Source: Acidobacteriota bacterium
Lineage (GTDB): Bacteria > Acidobacteriota > Vicinamibacteria > Vicinamibacterales > CAVVIG01
Direction of reading: 5' to 3'
DNA length: 57,035 bases
Assembly (NCBI GenBank): GCA_017883165.1
Contig: JADGOC010000006.1
Coordinates: 1 to 57,035, forward strand
The notes beneath the pieces were generated by a model. The model ran no database searches. It worked only from the letters and a program-made list of their open reading frames with translations, and was not told where the DNA came from. This document shows positions 2,627 to 50,071 of this stretch, piece by piece; position 1 is the stretch's first letter, and the number at the start of each line of letters is the position of its first letter. The translations under genes and the position numbers were made by a program.

Positions 2627-3171
2627 TCCAACTTCTCGCGCAGGAGCGTCATGCCGCGGTGGAGGTTCACACGGACCGATCCGGGCGTCAGGCCGGTACG
2701 TTCGGCGATTTCGGCGCCGCTCATGCCTTCCACGAGCCGCATGAGCAGCGTTTCGCGATATGCGTCAGGCAGCTGGCGGACGATGTCGAGCACGGCGAAG
2801 GTGTCCGCGTCGATCGAATCGCCGCCCGGCATGTCCTTGGGCAGCTCCACCTGTTCGCGCGTCTGGCGCAGGTGATCCGTCGCGCGGTTCCTGGCGATGG
2901 TCGCGAGCCAGCCGCCGAACGCCGCCGGCTCGCGGAGGCTCTTCAGGCGGGTGAAGACCGTCAGAAAGACGTCCTGGACCAGGTCGTCGACGTCGCGCCG
3001 TGGCACGCGTCCGAGCAGGATCGCGTGGACCATGCGGAAGTAGTCGGCGTACAGCCGCGCGAACGCGTCGCGGTCGCCACCGGCGGCGGCGCGAATCGTG
3101 AGATGCAGGCGCGGAAGATCGCGGGGTGTCAGCGCCGACAACACGGAGTGCAGCTCAAGCGCGTGGTCCAT
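2617..3171 (-). CDS. ECF-type RNA polymerase sigma-70 factor
   Basis: A 184-residue sigma factor with only regions 2 and 4. Region 2 (about residues 27-95) carries DDLVQDVFLTVF and WLATIARNRATDHLR. Region 4 (about 125-180) carries LPDAYRETLLMRLVEGMSG and the helix-turn-helix IAERTGLTPGSVRVNLHRG. The size and missing regions 1 and 3 fit the extracytoplasmic-function group. It is followed with overlap by a FecR-domain gene, so it is presumably held inactive or activated by that partner. The small gene at 3245-3502 lies 73 nt upstream on the same strand and might be co-transcribed. The regulon cannot be told from this window. Confidence 0.93.
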   Translation of the reverse strand: MDHALELHSVLSALTPRDLPRLHLTIRAAAGGDRDAFARLYADYFRMVHAILLGRVPRRDVDDLVQDVFLTVFTRLKSLREPAAFGGWLATIARNRATDHLRQTREQVELPKDMPGGDSIDADTFAVLDIVRQLPDAYRETLLMRLVEGMSGAEIAERTGLTPGSVRVNLHRGMTLLREKLEWK

Positions 3172-11668: not shown

Positions 11669-12901
11669 ATGCTGTCGATTGGATATCTTCGCGCCGCCGC
11701 CCTACTGGCGGCGATCGTCATGCCCGTGCTGGTGTTCACGCAGCGCGCCGAGGACGTGGTGGTGTCGCCACACGCCAAGCAGCTCCACGATCGCGCCATC
11801 GTCATCGATTCTCACGACGACACGACGCAGCGGCTGCTGTTCGACAAGACGTTCGACATCGGCGCCCGCCACACCGATGGAAATATCGACATCCCGCGCA
11901 TGCGCGACGGCGGCCTCGACGCGCTCTTCTTCTCCATTTGGGTGCCGAGCGACGTGACGGGCGCTCCGGCCGTCACGCAGGCGAACGAGCTCATCGACGC
12001 GGTGCTGGCGGCCGTTCGCACGCATCCCAAGGATCTCGTGCTGGCGAAGACCGCGGCCGACATCCGGCGCGCCGCGGCCGACCACAAGATCGCCGCGCTG
12101 ATGGGTGTGGAAGGCGGCCACATGATCAACGACAGCCTGCAGCAGCTGCGTGATTATGCCGGGCGCGGCGTGCGGTACCTCACGCTCACGCACTTCAAGA
12201 ACAACACGTGGGCCGATTCCTCGACCGACAAGCCCGAGCACAACGGCCTCACGCCGTTCGGCAAGGACGTCGTGCGCGAGCTGAATCGTTTGGGGCTGAT
12301 GGTCGACATCTCGCACGTTGCCGACAAGACCTTCTACGACGCCATCGAGGTGAGCCGGGCGCCGGTCATCGCGTCGCACTCCTCCTGCCGGGAGATTTCG
12401 CATCACCCGCGCAACATGAGCGACGACATGCTGCGCGCGCTCGCGAAGAACGGCGGCGTCGTGATGATCAACTATCACGTCAGCTTCCTGAGCGAGGAAT
12501 TCCGCGCCGCCAGCGAGAAGAAGAGCGGTGACATCGTGGCGCAGAACGAGGCGGCGTCGAAGAAATGCGGAGGCGACGAGGCGTGCTCGACGCTCGAGTC
12601 GGCGCGCATCGACCGCGAGTCGATGAAGAACGGTACGATGCCGATGGTGACGTGGGAGAAGATCATCGACCACATCGATCACGCGGTGAAAGTGGCCGGC
12701 ATCGATCACGTCGGCCTCGGGTCCGACTTCGACGGCGCCACGATGCCCTTCGGGATGGACGACGCGTCCAAGCTGCCAAGGATTACCGAGGCGCTGCTGA
12801 AGAAGGGCTATTCGGATCAGGACATTGAGAAGATTCTCGGCGGCAACATTCTCCGCGTGATGGAGGCAGTTGAACGGGCGGCTCAGAAGACGAAACAGTG
12901 A
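11669..12901 (+). CDS. secreted M19 membrane dipeptidase
   Basis: A 410-residue renal-dipeptidase-type metallopeptidase. A hydrophobic N-terminus (about residues 8-25) suggests a signal peptide or anchor. Binuclear zinc ligands are visible: HxD in DSHDD (H49, D51), the glutamate in MGVEGGHM, and histidines in DISHVADKTF and IASHSSCREI; GLGSDFDGA near the C-terminus is the usual family motif. It hydrolyses dipeptides, including D-containing ones, outside the cytoplasm. The gene is 16 nt after the ABC-2 permease. The stop is followed at once by heptamer repeats. Confidence 0.93.
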   Translation: MLSIGYLRAAALLAAIVMPVLVFTQRAEDVVVSPHAKQLHDRAIVIDSHDDTTQRLLFDKTFDIGARHTDGNIDIPRMRDGGLDALFFSIWVPSDVTGAPAVTQANELIDAVLAAVRTHPKDLVLAKTAADIRRAAADHKIAALMGVEGGHMINDSLQQLRDYAGRGVRYLTLTHFKNNTWADSSTDKPEHNGLTPFGKDVVRELNRLGLMVDISHVADKTFYDAIEVSRAPVIASHSSCREISHHPRNMSDDMLRALAKNGGVVMINYHVSFLSEEFRAASEKKSGDIVAQNEAASKKCGGDEACSTLESARIDRESMKNGTMPMVTWEKIIDHIDHAVKVAGIDHVGLGSDFDGATMPFGMDDASKLPRITEALLKKGYSDQDIEKILGGNILRVMEAVERAAQKTKQ

Positions 12902-12909
12902 ACCTGACT

Positions 12910-12937
12910 GGTTCTGGGTTCTCTAGGTTCTGGGTTC
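12910..12937. repeat. heptamer array GGTTCTN, left side
   Basis: Four 7-nt units GGTTCTG, GGTTCTC, GGTTCTG and GGTTCAC, with a TA insertion between the second and third. It begins 8 nt after the dipeptidase stop. It is the inverse complement of the array at 13111-13156. Confidence 0.8.
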
Positions 12938-13105
12938 ACGCTGCTTCGGACGGCGGTGGCATCGGTGAAGATAGAGCAGCGACTTGGTAGCGGCGCCGGT
13001 CGCTCGATCGGTGAGATGACATAACTCACTGCATTCCGTATCGGTCAGGTAACCGAGATCCAGGCCGTCGTGTAGATGATTATGAGTTTCCAGCAGCGAC
13101 GCTCG
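12926..13105 (-). pseudogene. four-helix-bundle (S23/IVP-type) gene remnant
   Basis: On the minus strand, 13105 to 12959 reads as the C-terminal half of a four-helix-bundle protein (RASLLETHNHLHDGLDLGYL, TECSELCHLTDRATGAATKS, LLYLHRC). The N-terminal half is missing. In its place the frame runs into heptamer repeat DNA and the start of the next gene, so no functional start exists. S23-type proteins are encoded inside 23S rRNA intervening sequences in some bacteria and also occur alone in intergenic DNA in many genomes. Here only a fragment bounded by inverted repeats survives. Family assignment rests on recalled consensus and is not searched. Confidence 0.65.
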
Positions 13106-13110
13106 AACCA

Positions 13111-13156
13111 AGAACCCAGAACCGAACGTAGCACCAAGAACCAAGAACCCAGAACC
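13111..13156. repeat. heptamer array AGAACCN, right side
   Basis: AGAACCC and AGAACCG at 13111-13124, then AGAACCA, AGAACCC and AGAACCT at 13137-13157. The 13-nt core AGAACCCAGAACC occurs at 13111-13123 and 13144-13156, and its complement at 12910-12922, so the S23 remnant is flanked by inverted arrays. Confidence 0.8.
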
Positions 13157-13163
13157 TCGCGAG

Positions 13164-14327
13164 ATGAAGCGATCCGCTGACGTCGTGATCGTGGGCGGCG
13201 GGTGCATGGGCGCGAGCGTCGCCTATCACCTGGCGCGGCGCGGTGTCACCGATGTCGTGCTTCTCGAACGCGAGAAGCTGCTCGCGTCAGGATCCACCGG
13301 CCGCAACGCGGGCGGCGTCCGCCACCAATTCTCCAACGCCGCCAACATCCGGCTCTCGATCGAATCGATTGCGCTGCTCGAGCGCTTCAAGGATGAAATC
13401 GGCTACGAGATCGACTTTCATCAGGACGGGTATCTGTTCCTGCTCTCGACGGCGGCGAGCGTCGAGACGTTCAGGCAGAACGTCGCCCTCCAGCGGAGCT
13501 TCGGCATTGACGTCGAGTGGCTCGCGGCGGACGAGGCGGCGCGGCTTGCGCCGGGTCTTTCGACCGACGGCGTGCTTGGTGCCACTTTCTGCCGGCGCGA
13601 CGGCATCGCCGATCCCAACGGCGTGACGATGGGATTCGCCAAGGCGGCGCAGGCGATGGGGACGACGATTGAGCGCGACACGGAGGTCACCGGCATCACG
13701 GTCGACCGCGGACGCGTGTCGGGCGTGAACACCGCGCGCGGCGCGATCGCGGCGCCCATCGTCGTGAACGCCGCCGGGCCCCACGCGCGTGCGATCGGCC
13801 GCATGGCGGGGGTCGACGTGCCGGTGGACCCGTATCGCCGGCACATCTTCATCGCTCAGCCGGCGTCGACGCTTCGAGCGGCCGCTCTGCCCGCGTCGAA
13901 GATCATGGTTATCGACTTCGAGACGACTTTCTATTTCCATCGCGAGGGCGCCGGTCTCCTGTTCGGGATGGGCGATCCCGGCGAGCCTTCGACCTTCGAC
14001 ACGACCGTTCGGTGGGACTTCCTCGCGCAGGTGACCGATATCGCGGTGACGCGTGTGCCCGCGCTCGCGGACGCATCGATTTCGCATGCCTGGGCCGGGC
14101 TGTACGAAATGACGCCGGACGCGAATCCGATCATCGGCCCCGCGCGCGACGTGCCCGGATTCTTTCTCATCAACGGCTTCAGCGGCCACGGGTTCCAGCA
14201 TTCGCCCGCGGCCGGGCGGATTCTCGCCGACCTCATCGTCGGCGCCGATCCGGCGATGGACCTCGCCCCCTTCGCGCTCGAGCGGCTGGCGGCCGGCACC
14301 GCGGCGGGAGAGCGCTATGTGGTGTGA
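13164..14327 (+). CDS. FAD-dependent oxidoreductase (DAO / sarcosine-oxidase type)
   Basis: A 387-residue flavoenzyme. The N-terminal dinucleotide fold DVVIVGGGCMGASVAYHLAR (residues 6-25) ends in an acidic ribose-binding residue (LLER), followed by GSTGRNAGGVRHQF, the GG doublet and histidine region of the sarcosine/glycine oxidase group. The C-terminal GFSGHGFQHSPAAG motif closes the FAD site. It likely oxidises an N-methyl or secondary amino acid. It stands alone: the GNAT gene 45 nt downstream has its own GTG start. The start at 13164 is 7 nt after the heptamer array, so the array may affect its expression. Confidence 0.88.
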   Translation: MKRSADVVIVGGGCMGASVAYHLARRGVTDVVLLEREKLLASGSTGRNAGGVRHQFSNAANIRLSIESIALLERFKDEIGYEIDFHQDGYLFLLSTAASVETFRQNVALQRSFGIDVEWLAADEAARLAPGLSTDGVLGATFCRRDGIADPNGVTMGFAKAAQAMGTTIERDTEVTGITVDRGRVSGVNTARGAIAAPIVVNAAGPHARAIGRMAGVDVPVDPYRRHIFIAQPASTLRAAALPASKIMVIDFETTFYFHREGAGLLFGMGDPGEPSTFDTTVRWDFLAQVTDIAVTRVPALADASISHAWAGLYEMTPDANPIIGPARDVPGFFLINGFSGHGFQHSPAAGRILADLIVGADPAMDLAPFALERLAAGTAAGERYVV

Positions 14328-26871: not shown

Positions 26872-27211
26872 CAATCACCTCAATCTGACGGACACGACGG
26901 GAGCGAGACGACCCGGATACACGCCCGTTACCGCGTCCCTCATCAGCATCCGCAGGGCGATGACAAAAAGGTACATCTTGATCGGGGGTTCGAGCGAGAA
27001 CGGCCTAACTATCCCACAGCCCGGCCGGGGGGCGCAACCCATGACATTCTTATGAAGCGCAAATCACGGTGGTTTTCGCAGACTTTCGTCACACATTCGC
27101 CACGATTTGTCACCGATTGTGTCCGGTTGGACCGTCCCTCCGTTCCGGCCGGAGTCACCCCATCTGGTAATCTGATCACCTGGTTATCTGATCATTTGAT
27201 CTGGTCATTTT
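26872..27211. other. 340-nt divergent intergenic region
   Basis: It separates the radical SAM operon from the E1 alpha gene and must hold both promoters. I found no convincing -35/-10 pair, tRNA, riboswitch or small ORF. The only structure seen is a degenerate 8-nt-period tandem repeat at 27164-27211 next to the E1 alpha start. Confidence 0.6.
27164..27211. repeat. degenerate octamer repeat (TGRTNATC type) before E1 alpha
   Basis: ATCTGATCA occurs twice 16 nt apart (27170-27178 and 27186-27194), and related units TGGTAATC, TGATCACC, TGGTTATC, TGATCATT and TGATCTGG run in 8-nt phase up to the GTG start at 27212. No Shine-Dalgarno is present between the repeat and the start. Confidence 0.6.
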
Positions 27212-32826: not shown

Positions 32827-34190
32827 ACGTGCTGCTCGCATTGGCGTTGGCGCTGAACAGTCAGCAGTCGCAAGTCGCAGGTCGTCAGTCGCAAGTCGAC
32901 GGTGATCAGTCGCAAGTCGACAGCCGTCGGTCGTCAGTGGCGACGGTCGACCTGACGCTCGACGATGCGATCGCGCGCGGGCTGGCGGCGAGCCATCGGC
33001 TCGCCGAAGCGGCGGCGCGCGGTGACGCGGCCAGCGCCGTCGCCGACCAACGCCACGCCGCGATCCTGCCGCAGCTCGCGGCGCAGGCCGGCTACACGCG
33101 CACCAACCACGTCGAGGCGTTCGGGCTGCTGCTGCCGAACAACCAGCTCAAGATTATTTACCCAGACATTCCCGACAACTACCGGACGCGGCTCGATCTG
33201 CAGTGGCCGATCTACACCGGCGGCCGGCTCGACGCGCTCGAGCGGGCCGCCCGCATGGAAGCCGCGGCGTCCGCCGACGATCTTGCCGCCGCGCGCGCCG
33301 ATCTGCGCCTCGAGATCACGCGCGCCTACTGGGCGCTCGTCACCGTCGCCGCGTCTCTCCGCGTCGTCGACGAGTCGGTGCAGCGGGTCGATGCGCACCT
33401 GCGCGATGTGCGCAATCAGCTGGACGCGGGGCTGATTCCGCCCAACGAGGTGCTGAGCGTCGAAGCGCAGGAATCGCGGCAGCGGATGCTGAGCATTCAG
33501 GCGCGGTCCATGCGCGATGTGGCGGAAGCCGAGCTCGGCAAGCTGATGGGTGCGCCGCCGGGAACCGCGATCCACCCCGTGTCGACGCTCGATGCGCCGC
33601 CGCCGCTGACGGCGGCCGTGGGCCGGCTCATCGAGGACGCGACCCGCGACCGCTCGGAACGCGCGGCGCTCGCCAGGCGCGTCGCCGCGGCCGGCGTGCG
33701 ACGGGAGGCCGCGGCCGCCGGCGCCAAGCCGACGATCGCGTTTGGCGGCGGGCTCGACTACGCGCGGCCGAATCCGCGCATCTTTCCGCGCGATGCCACG
33801 TGGCGTGACTCCTGGGACGCCAGCATCAATGTGAGCTGGCCACTCTTCGACGGCGGACGCACGCGGGCGGAAGTGGCCGAAGCTCGCGCCACCGTCCGCG
33901 CGGTTGAAGAGCGTCTGGCCGACTTCGACGCCACCCTGGCTGTCGAAGTCCGTCAGCGGCTGAGCGAGCTCGAGTCGAGCCGCGCGGCGATCGAGGCGGC
34001 ATCGGACGCGGTCCGCGCCGCCGCCGAGGCGGCGCGCGTGGTCGCCAATCGTTTTACCGCCGGCGTCGCGACGAGTACCGACGTGCTCGACGCGCACGTG
34101 GCGCTCCTGCAGGCCGAGCTCGATCACACGCAGGCGATGGCCAACGCGCGGCTGGCGGACGCGCGCCTCGCGCGCGCGCTGGGAAAATGA
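32823..34190 (+). CDS. TolC-family outer-membrane efflux protein
   Basis: A 455-residue protein with two OEP repeats. Conserved pieces include DLTLDDAIARGLAASHRLAE, NHVEAFGLLLPNNQ, LQWPIYTGGRLDALERAARM and VSWPLFDGGRTRAEVAEARA, with long alanine-rich helices between them. It is the outer-membrane duct for the pump. The N-terminus is odd: MNVLLALALAL has no basic residue, and where a signal cleavage site is expected there is a 7-residue repeat (QQSQVAG, RQSQVDG, DQSQVDS, RRSSVAT) encoded by a 7-nt DNA repeat. It starts inside the ATPase stop (ATGA) and ends in an ATGA overlap with ATPase 2. Having TolC within this operon differs from E. coli. Confidence 0.9.
   Translation: MNVLLALALALNSQQSQVAGRQSQVDGDQSQVDSRRSSVATVDLTLDDAIARGLAASHRLAEAAARGDAASAVADQRHAAILPQLAAQAGYTRTNHVEAFGLLLPNNQLKIIYPDIPDNYRTRLDLQWPIYTGGRLDALERAARMEAAASADDLAAARADLRLEITRAYWALVTVAASLRVVDESVQRVDAHLRDVRNQLDAGLIPPNEVLSVEAQESRQRMLSIQARSMRDVAEAELGKLMGAPPGTAIHPVSTLDAPPPLTAAVGRLIEDATRDRSERAALARRVAAAGVRREAAAAGAKPTIAFGGGLDYARPNPRIFPRDATWRDSWDASINVSWPLFDGGRTRAEVAEARATVRAVEERLADFDATLAVEVRQRLSELESSRAAIEAASDAVRAAAEAARVVANRFTAGVATSTDVLDAHVALLQAELDHTQAMANARLADARLARALGK
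32858..32941. repeat. twelve-unit heptanucleotide repeat inside the tolC-like gene
   Basis: Twelve in-phase 7-nt units with consensus (C/A)AGTCGC run from codon 12 to codon 40. The best-conserved units are CAGTCGC (three times) and AAGTCGC/AAGTCGA (three times); the others differ at one to three positions. Three units make 21 nt, so the protein shows a 7-residue period. Gain or loss of a single unit would shift the frame. Confidence 0.9.
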
Positions 34191-48987: not shown

Positions 48988-50071
48988 GGGAGGCTCCATG
49001 CGCGGCGACGAGCCGGCGATAGACGGCGATGTACTCATCGACCATGCGTTCCACGCCGAAGCGCATGACCGCACGCTCTCGGACTCGCCGTCGATCGAGA
49101 TCGAAGACGCGCGGCAGCCCGTTGACCATCTCCTCGAGATCCTGGAACACGAAGCCGGTGACGCCCTCGTCCACGACCTCGCGGACCGCGCCGCGATCGA
49201 GCGCCGCGACCGGCGTGCCGCACGCCATCGCTTCGGCGAGCACGAGGCCGAACGGCTCGCGGGCCTGGATCGGGTAGAGCAGCGCGCGCGCCCCGCCGTA
49301 CAGCTTCACTTTCGCCGGATGATCCGCTTCGCCGTAATAGATGACGCGGGTGCCGTCGACATGCGGCGCCACCTTGTCGCGGTAGTACTCGTCTTCGGCG
49401 GCGGCGAGAATCAGGCGCATGCCGACGCGTTTGGCCACTTCGATCGCCTGCAGGACGCCTTTGCCGTCGGTGAAGCGGCCGAGAAAGAGCAGATAGTCGT
49501 CCGGCTTCGCCTGAAACGTGAAGGAGTCGGTGTCGATGCCGTGGAGCACCGTGCCGATGACGTTGAGGCCGTGCAGCAAGCGCGCCTGCTCGTTCGAAAT
49601 CGCGACGAAGGGCGCCTCGGGGTAGCGCGACCACAAGCCGATCTCCGCTTCGCTCGGCGAATGATGAAGCGTCTGGACCATTGGCGTCGGCGACAGACGC
49701 GCGAAGGCGAGCGACATCGGGTAGTACGCCGCTTCGTAATGGATGATGTCGAAGTCGCGCGCCAGCTCGACGGCCGCGGCGAGGTTCAACATTTCGTACA
49801 GCTCCCACGGCCACATGTTCTCGTCGTGCCAGTAGCCTTGCTTGTAGATCGCGTGCAGCTTGGCCTTCGTCTTCGAATCGGCCGTGGCGAAGAGCGTGAC
49901 GTCCTGGCCTTTCGCGACCAGCCCTTCGGTGAGCAGCGACGTCATCAGCTCGACCGATCCCGACTTGAGCGGCGGCACCTCGGTGGCGACCGGGGCGATA
50001 TGCGCGATTCGCAAGGGTGCGTCGCTGGTGGCTGGAGGCTGGTGGCTGGTGGCTGGTCGGTCGGTACTCAT
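48977..50071 (-). CDS. GT4-type glycosyltransferase
   Basis: A 364-residue enzyme from ATG 50071, in ATGA overlap with the gene upstream. It shows LRIAHIAPVATEVPPLKSGS at the first Rossmann fold, FDIIHYEAAYYPMSL, the acceptor/donor motif FLGRFTDGKGVLQAIEVAKR, and the C-terminal EPFGLVLAEAMACGTPVAAL (ExxxxxxxE). Between the start and the first fold lie ~15 residues (PATSHQPPATSD) encoded by a 7-nt tandem repeat, which the family does not need. A longer frame to 50401 is antisense-like and was discarded. Confidence 0.9.
   Translation of the reverse strand: MSTDRPATSHQPPATSDAPLRIAHIAPVATEVPPLKSGSVELMTSLLTEGLVAKGQDVTLFATADSKTKAKLHAIYKQGYWHDENMWPWELYEMLNLAAAVELARDFDIIHYEAAYYPMSLAFARLSPTPMVQTLHHSPSEAEIGLWSRYPEAPFVAISNEQARLLHGLNVIGTVLHGIDTDSFTFQAKPDDYLLFLGRFTDGKGVLQAIEVAKRVGMRLILAAAEDEYYRDKVAPHVDGTRVIYYGEADHPAKVKLYGGARALLYPIQAREPFGLVLAEAMACGTPVAALDRGAVREVVDEGVTGFVFQDLEEMVNGLPRVFDLDRRRVRERAVMRFGVERMVDEYIAVYRRLVAAHGASHGR
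50025..50059. repeat. five-unit heptanucleotide repeat CTGGTGG in the glycosyltransferase start
   Basis: CTGGTGG, CTGGAGG, CTGGTGG, CTGGTGG and CTGGTCG in perfect 7-nt phase (plus-strand sense). It begins only 12 nt downstream of the glycosyltransferase ATG on the minus strand. Each unit gained or lost shifts the reading frame by one base. Confidence 0.9.

Follow-up and report, generated by a model that had tools for sequence, protein, structure and literature searches.

What kind of element places a gene fragment between two inverted arrays of a short repeat, in the narrow gap between two genes? The question is raised by positions 12910-13156 of a 57,035-nt stretch of DNA from an Acidobacteriota bacterium (contig JADGOC010000006.1, positions 1 to 57,035, assembly GCA_017883165.1; the whole stretch is called the window here), where part of an S23 gene is bracketed by GGTTCTN units on the left and AGAACCN units on the right. 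The element occupies the 262-bp gap between a dipeptidase gene and an oxidoreductase gene, beginning 8 bp after the dipeptidase stop codon and ending 7 bp before the oxidoreductase start. It is a decayed, 5'-truncated copy of a widespread unit made of an S23 gene and its arrays, and this unit, rather than the copy in the window, is the finding reported here. S23 proteins are widespread and have solved structures; to our knowledge they have no known role, and we know of no catalytic activity for them.

An earlier description of this DNA, made without database searches (the sequence-only reading), had proposed inverted heptamer arrays enclosing only the C-terminal part of an S23-type gene, and both points were borne out. 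The pattern GGTTCTNGGTTCT, with at most one mismatch, has 7 matches in the window, all within the element (mean 0.11 and maximum 1 in shuffled sequences), and the complementarity of the two arms scores 19, compared with at most 17 at 3000 random window positions. The fragment alone was not recognised by Pfam and NCBIfam profiles. However, it aligns with residues 72-117 of an intact S23 protein of 126 residues from the same family (locus L043; 59% identity over 46 aa, E 1e-16), which passes PF05635 with 96.8 bits (cut-off 33.8), and by this sequence match the fragment is placed in the PF05635/S23 family. The structure model of L043 (pLDDT 93.5) best matches PDB 2GSC (TM 0.80-0.94), followed by 2RLD and then by Avd and the ribonucleoprotein of diversity-generating retroelements (DGRs), at TM about 0.7-0.8. 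A four-helix bundle like 2GSC is thus the predicted fold of the intact relative, of which the window fragment would span only the C-terminal part. About 71 N-terminal residues are missing from the fragment and the 5' array adjoins the break, while at the other end the frame enters the 3' array and reaches its stop codon there. Both arrays are imperfect and interrupted. Read in the sense of the S23 gene, the 5' arm shows the G-rich strand of the unit, and 111 of 131 arrays at other loci are oriented likewise.

S23 genes between inverted arrays in other genomes

The sequence-only reading had suggested looking for array flanks at other intergenic S23 genes, and they are present in the same family, at loci from other phyla and on plasmids. 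S23 was found in 25 of 27 same-family genomes, with about 100 matches in total. For 81 same-family loci, the left flank compared with the reverse-complemented right flank gives a median score of 32 (17 when flanks are swapped between loci), 51 of the 81 loci lie above the 95th percentile, and the flanks are inverted at 61 loci and direct at 4. Tandem repeats occur on both flanks of 42 of 86 S23 genes but only 4 of 121 neighbouring genes, a conservative contrast because the control genes contain arrays too. Among cross-phylum loci, 49 of 67 exceed the 95th percentile, including Xanthomonas with the gene of PDB 2GSC, and the S23 genes of Nostoc, Anabaena and Riemerella plasmids have array-like flanks by eye, clearly inverted in Nostoc. 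Arms from one locus also pair more stably with each other than with swapped arms (68 of 82 and 18 of 20 loci). An S23 gene between inverted arrays of 7-9-nt repeats is therefore a general pattern across many bacterial phyla, and chance arrays are ruled out by the shuffles together with this recurrence. Among the genes lying up to 3 kb from 84 S23 loci, S23 alone is widely recurrent (42 and 39 loci, against 7 for the next cluster), and no transposase or reverse transcriptase recurs within this distance, whole genomes not having been searched for copying enzymes or reverse transcriptase genes. No S23 match was found in phages with the query used.

Several of these loci have features of their own. 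On the Anabaena sp. 90 plasmid pANA02 (L355), a type I-D CRISPR operon has an S23 gene between its cas6 and cas4 genes; a long array of mixed GGTGACA/GGGAACA units lies upstream of S23, and no clear inverted array comes after it. On the Nostoc edaphicum plasmid pNe_5 (L354), S23 with inverted GGGAGTA-type arrays lies between two ribonucleotide reductase subunit genes. Loci L288, L309 and L313 have S23 elements with GGGACTC/GGGACCG-type arrays, and the neighbours at L309 and L313 were read as carA and carB. At L038, a perfect direct duplication of 119 bp (1378-1496 and 1883-2001) places the end of a neighbour gene around a 5'-truncated S23 gene; its length is a common assembler k-mer, and it is probably an assembly artefact rather than a target duplication.

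The repeat itself is not the same everywhere. AGAACCN, proposed earlier as the flanking sequence, is found in the window, but the unit is not fixed and has 7, 8 or 9 nt according to the S23 clade, so a fixed AGAACCN array is ruled out as a hallmark of S23. We compared a tree of 72 S23 proteins with their repeat units in the orientation of the gene. The 5-mer overlap of units between genomes is 0.375 for the closest S23 pairs and 0.036 for distant pairs, and after removal of pairs that share flanking genes, which leaves non-orthologous loci, the effect stays (rho -0.212; 0 of 1000 permutations as strong). Each S23 clade has its own repeat unit, across genera and even at non-orthologous sites; the best relatives of the window fragment all belong to the GGTTC/GGTGC clade. 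Likewise, in the same family, GTCRTTR arrays occur in 6 of 7 genomes with the LQVYQ clade of S23 and in 2 of 20 without it (p 6e-4). The match between unit and clade shows that gene and arms form one unit, and is no demonstration that the protein reads the repeat; shared descent alone could explain part of it.

Gain, loss and dispersed arrays

The sequence-only reading had further taken the window element for the remains of an insertable intergenic element. The window offers a decayed S23 element between two genes, and empty sites were found in another family, the Xanthomonadaceae. In Xanthomonas and Luteimonas, an S23 gene related to XCC0516 (PDB 2GSC) lies inside inverted GGGAATC arrays between genes read as accB and accC. 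We searched this junction in 79 Xanthomonadaceae genomes and read 50 loci, of which 13 have an empty gap of 2-8 bp that holds no array, about 20 have an S23 element of 430-530 bp and three, by eye, have arms only. Terminal inverted repeats together with presence and absence at an orthologous site, as expected of a transposon or a miniature inverted-repeat transposable element (MITE), were thus found at accB-accC and not at the window locus. The unit at the junction varies by species (GGGAATC, GGGATTC, GTGATTC, GTGATTG, GTGAATC), and the arms match their own partner better on average than those of other species (23.5 vs 17.1), although the top-ranking right arm is the own one in only 7 of 19 cases. 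On a tree built from less than 900 bp of accB-accC, S23 presence is interleaved with 12 changes (shuffles: mean 15.2, minimum 10). Gain and loss of the unit at this one site in Xanthomonadaceae are well supported.

Two observations concern the same junction. At seven loci (L267, L269, L271-L274, L276) it holds a different, GC-rich hairpin element of 84-102 bp with a CCGCGAACGCC-like core, so repeats of more than one type are drawn to this site. At L104-L106 a Xanthomonas gene matching 2GSC lies between accB and accC; the Coxiella paper, by contrast, counts Xanthomonas as a species whose S23 is found in an rRNA intervening sequence (PMC4990558).

Arrays are also dispersed through genomes without an adjacent gene. 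In 30 Xanthomonadaceae genomes we counted S23 genes and three classes of array pattern, as matches that overlap within one array. The 19 genomes with S23 at accB-accC have 45-494 matches, with the exception of G072, and the 11 genomes without it have 0-3. Eight of these 11 have no S23 at all and zero matches, and in the other three the S23 genes belong to different clades and, by eye, have different units. A high array load therefore goes with S23 at accB-accC in 18 of 19 genomes and 0 of 11 without it (Fisher 2e-7). Supported sister pairs on the accB-accC tree differ in the same way, with 298 vs 0 matches (support 1.00) and 417 vs 0 (support 0.99). An apparent strand bias of the arrays along one G056 contig was a listing artefact, and the DNA itself shows both orientations.

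S23 elements and gene-less inverted pairs have a core, GNNARAGC, in common inside their arms. Of 52 ends of gene-less pairs, 27 have AGC where it is expected, as do 11 of 13 S23 left ends but only 2 of 13 S23 right ends, compared with 29 of 1240 internal controls. Beyond the ends the gene-less pairs share no homology, and MITE-like copying of one fixed sequence is not supported: their unrelated loops mean that no fixed sequence is simply copied, and only arms and core recur.

In the genome of the window (a draft of 334 contigs), one intact S23 gene was found (L001). By eye, its flanks are arrays of an 8-nt unit that differs from AGAACCN (GGTGATGG), the right-hand one being a degenerate inverted copy. 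AGAACCN pairs occur at nine places, mostly without S23, and inverted octamer pairs without S23 were seen by eye in L001 and L010, so arrays are not confined to S23 genes. According to the sequence-only reading, arrays that are common without S23 genes would speak against the link. Taken literally this is the situation in the same genome, but in Xanthomonadaceae the arrays occur only where a cognate S23 exists, and arrays without an adjacent S23 look like dependants of the element, not evidence against it.

Known systems and possible explanations

Parts of this picture have been described separately. Rehm 2015 reported two repeats, the GGGAATC heptamer in Xanthomonas and GGGGA(C/T)T in Nostoc, including convergent pairs; the paper leaves their function open, does not mention S23 and found no link to mobile elements (PMC4692102). 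Those GGGAATC repeats are the arm of the accB-accC S23 element, and the convergent pairs match the gene-less pairs found here. MacGregor 2015 described heptamers of Beggiatoaceae without mention of S23 (PMC4679880). Warrier 2016 treated S23 as the frame of rRNA intervening sequences, whose origin has been unclear for decades (PMC4990558), and the resemblance of S23 to Avd has been noted (PMC10053308). We did not find a link between S23 and the arrays in the open-licence literature; an earlier description is possible.

In our reading, which is by analogy, the unit may work like REPIN-RAYT and appears related to the S23 intervening sequences of rRNA; by test it is a member of neither. In REPIN-RAYT, as here, a gene is flanked by inverted repeat copies, gene-less inverted pairs are dispersed and the repeat type is matched to the gene (PMC3116915). 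However, RAYT is a Y1 (HUH) transposase whereas the gene here encodes a predicted four-helix bundle, and the arms here are tandem arrays of variable length with non-homologous loops instead of palindromic REP sequences. The 23S rRNA intervening sequences of Coxiella and Leptospira likewise carry an S23 frame, coding for a PF05635 protein and often decaying, in the loop between complementary ends (PMC4990558). Unlike them, the window element lies outside rRNA, between dipeptidase and oxidoreductase genes; and whereas the intervening sequence has one unique stem, S23 elements have arrays of clade-specific 7-9-nt units and many dispersed gene-less arms. A transposon or MITE differs in that its autonomous copy carries a transposase, whereas S23 is the only gene of the unit here, judged from the neighbours within 3 kb. 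Avd, an accessory protein of DGRs, probably has the same fold family as S23 according to the models (PMC10053308), but S23 elements have no recurrent reverse transcriptase, template or variable repeat nearby, as judged from the recurrence of neighbours.

On balance we lean towards a small, selfish intergenic unit, composed of a 5' array of a 7-9-nt unit, an S23 gene and an inverted array, whose S23 protein promotes the copying of cognate arms. The unit is gained and lost between genes, and the genome also carries dispersed arms without the gene, singly or as inverted pairs. The S23 four-helix bundle, of the Avd fold, would recognise cognate arms as hairpin nucleic acid and promote their copying into new intergenic sites by an enzyme that the host supplies in trans, through RNA and cDNA or through single-stranded DNA. 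S23 as the driver of arm spread is the best explanation we can infer from the correlation between gene and arrays; binding of S23 to the arms, the spread that it would cause and the copying route are parts of the same conjecture. A broader idea, which we hold only tentatively and consider rather doubtful as a whole, is that S23/Avd-like proteins outside rRNA and DGRs are specificity factors of an unrecognised class of selfish repeats ending in short tandem arrays. The 7-9-nt repeats of Xanthomonas, cyanobacteria and others would then be dispersed arms and rRNA intervening sequences one branch. On this view each side of a site could receive an arm, for example through templated copying in trans, in line with the unrelated loops and the common inner core motif.

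Several observations weigh against the selfish unit. No copying enzyme was identified among the neighbours examined, those within 3 kb of S23 loci. The flanks at accB-accC, read without statistical analysis, show no clear target-site duplication, and S23 at this junction is conserved and mostly occurs as a single copy, as expected of a gene adapted to its host. G072 has S23 and only 5 array matches, while G017 and G018 carry many GTCRTTR arrays and their cognate S23 was not detected. The loops of gene-less pairs are homologous neither to one another nor to S23 elements, recognisable arms are missing at about 10 of the 81 same-family loci, and totals of overlapping pattern matches are not numbers of arrays.

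Some of this would suit host-adapted RNA regulation: hairpins formed by the arrays would regulate operons or direct the processing of their mRNA, S23 would be the RNA-binding protein that reads them, and the patchy occurrence would come from gain and loss of a regulon and not from selfish spread. The location of elements immediately between the stop codon of one gene and the start codon of the next in the same direction (accB-accC, carA-carB), the more stable pairing of own arms and the conserved accB-accC S23 agree with it. However, no common feature is evident among the neighbouring genes, no particular target gene is consistently involved in gain and loss, S23 genes undergo decay, as the window shows, and neighbours of arrays spread over functional classes (Rehm 2015, PMC4692102), and we consider this explanation unlikely. 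Still less probable is that S23 is a passenger which landed within one arm pair, the arrays being spread by an unlinked factor (for example a RAYT or another transposase, or a reverse transcriptase). The lack of known catalytic activity, the lack of an enzyme linked to the unit and the large excess of gene-less pairs over S23 elements would fit a passenger; the match of unit to S23 clade across genomes, the absence of arrays from the eight genomes without S23 and the recurrence of S23 as sole widespread gene would not.

S23-bearing genomes commonly hold arrays without S23, as they would if S23 elements inserted into pre-existing arrays serving as targets or recombination hot spots. After such an insertion both flanks would point the same way, against the 61 inverted and 4 direct cases. 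Empty accB-accC sites are array-free and genomes without S23 lack arrays. The inverted flanks and array-free empty sites disfavour this explanation, to which we give very little credence. Finally, the window comes from a draft genome, and chance or an assembly artefact might be suspected. This is refuted almost entirely, since dozens of independent loci, some of them in isolate genomes and on complete plasmids, show the pattern again and shuffles do not give it.

The unit ties a protein family without a known role to widespread intergenic repeats of unexplained origin, among them the arrays of Xanthomonas, Nostoc and Beggiatoaceae, for which there is so far no agreed cause. The link makes both sides testable: the repeat of a genome is predictable from its S23 clade, and dependence of the arrays on S23 could show on deletion of one small gene.

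Features of the window

The element and its neighbours are listed in the following table.

Table. Coordinates of the S23 element in the window and of the genes beside it.
Feature	Position	Strand	Details
Left neighbour, membrane dipeptidase (Peptidase_M19)	11669..12901	+	PF01244 E 1e-110
GGTTCTN array, 3' arm in S23 gene sense	12910..12938	+	units start 12910, 12917, 12926, 12933
S23 gene fragment (PF05635-type four-helix), about codon 72 to stop	12923..13105	-	59% identity to L043, E 1e-16; stop codon 12923-12925
S23-homologous part of the fragment	12968-13105	-	alignment to L043 over 46 aa
Inverted array, 5' arm in S23 gene sense	13104..13156	-	GGTTCTN on minus strand; AGAACC-type units start 13104, 13111, 13118, 13130, 13137, 13144, 13151
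Right neighbour, FAD-dependent oxidoreductase (DAO)	13164..14327	+	PF01266 E 4e-83

Three other short arrays were seen in the window. At 27163-27210, a short, interrupted octamer-like array of the TCTGGTAA/TCTGATCA type, without an adjoining S23 gene, lies near the start of a downstream gene; it is similar to the class of GGTTATCT units seen at L081 and L083. An AGTCG-type heptamer array at 32857-32933 is apparently within the start of a coding frame. A GGCTGGT heptamer array at 50024-50057 has 4.9 copies and no visible inverted partner, and its unit is similar to those of L025 and L071.
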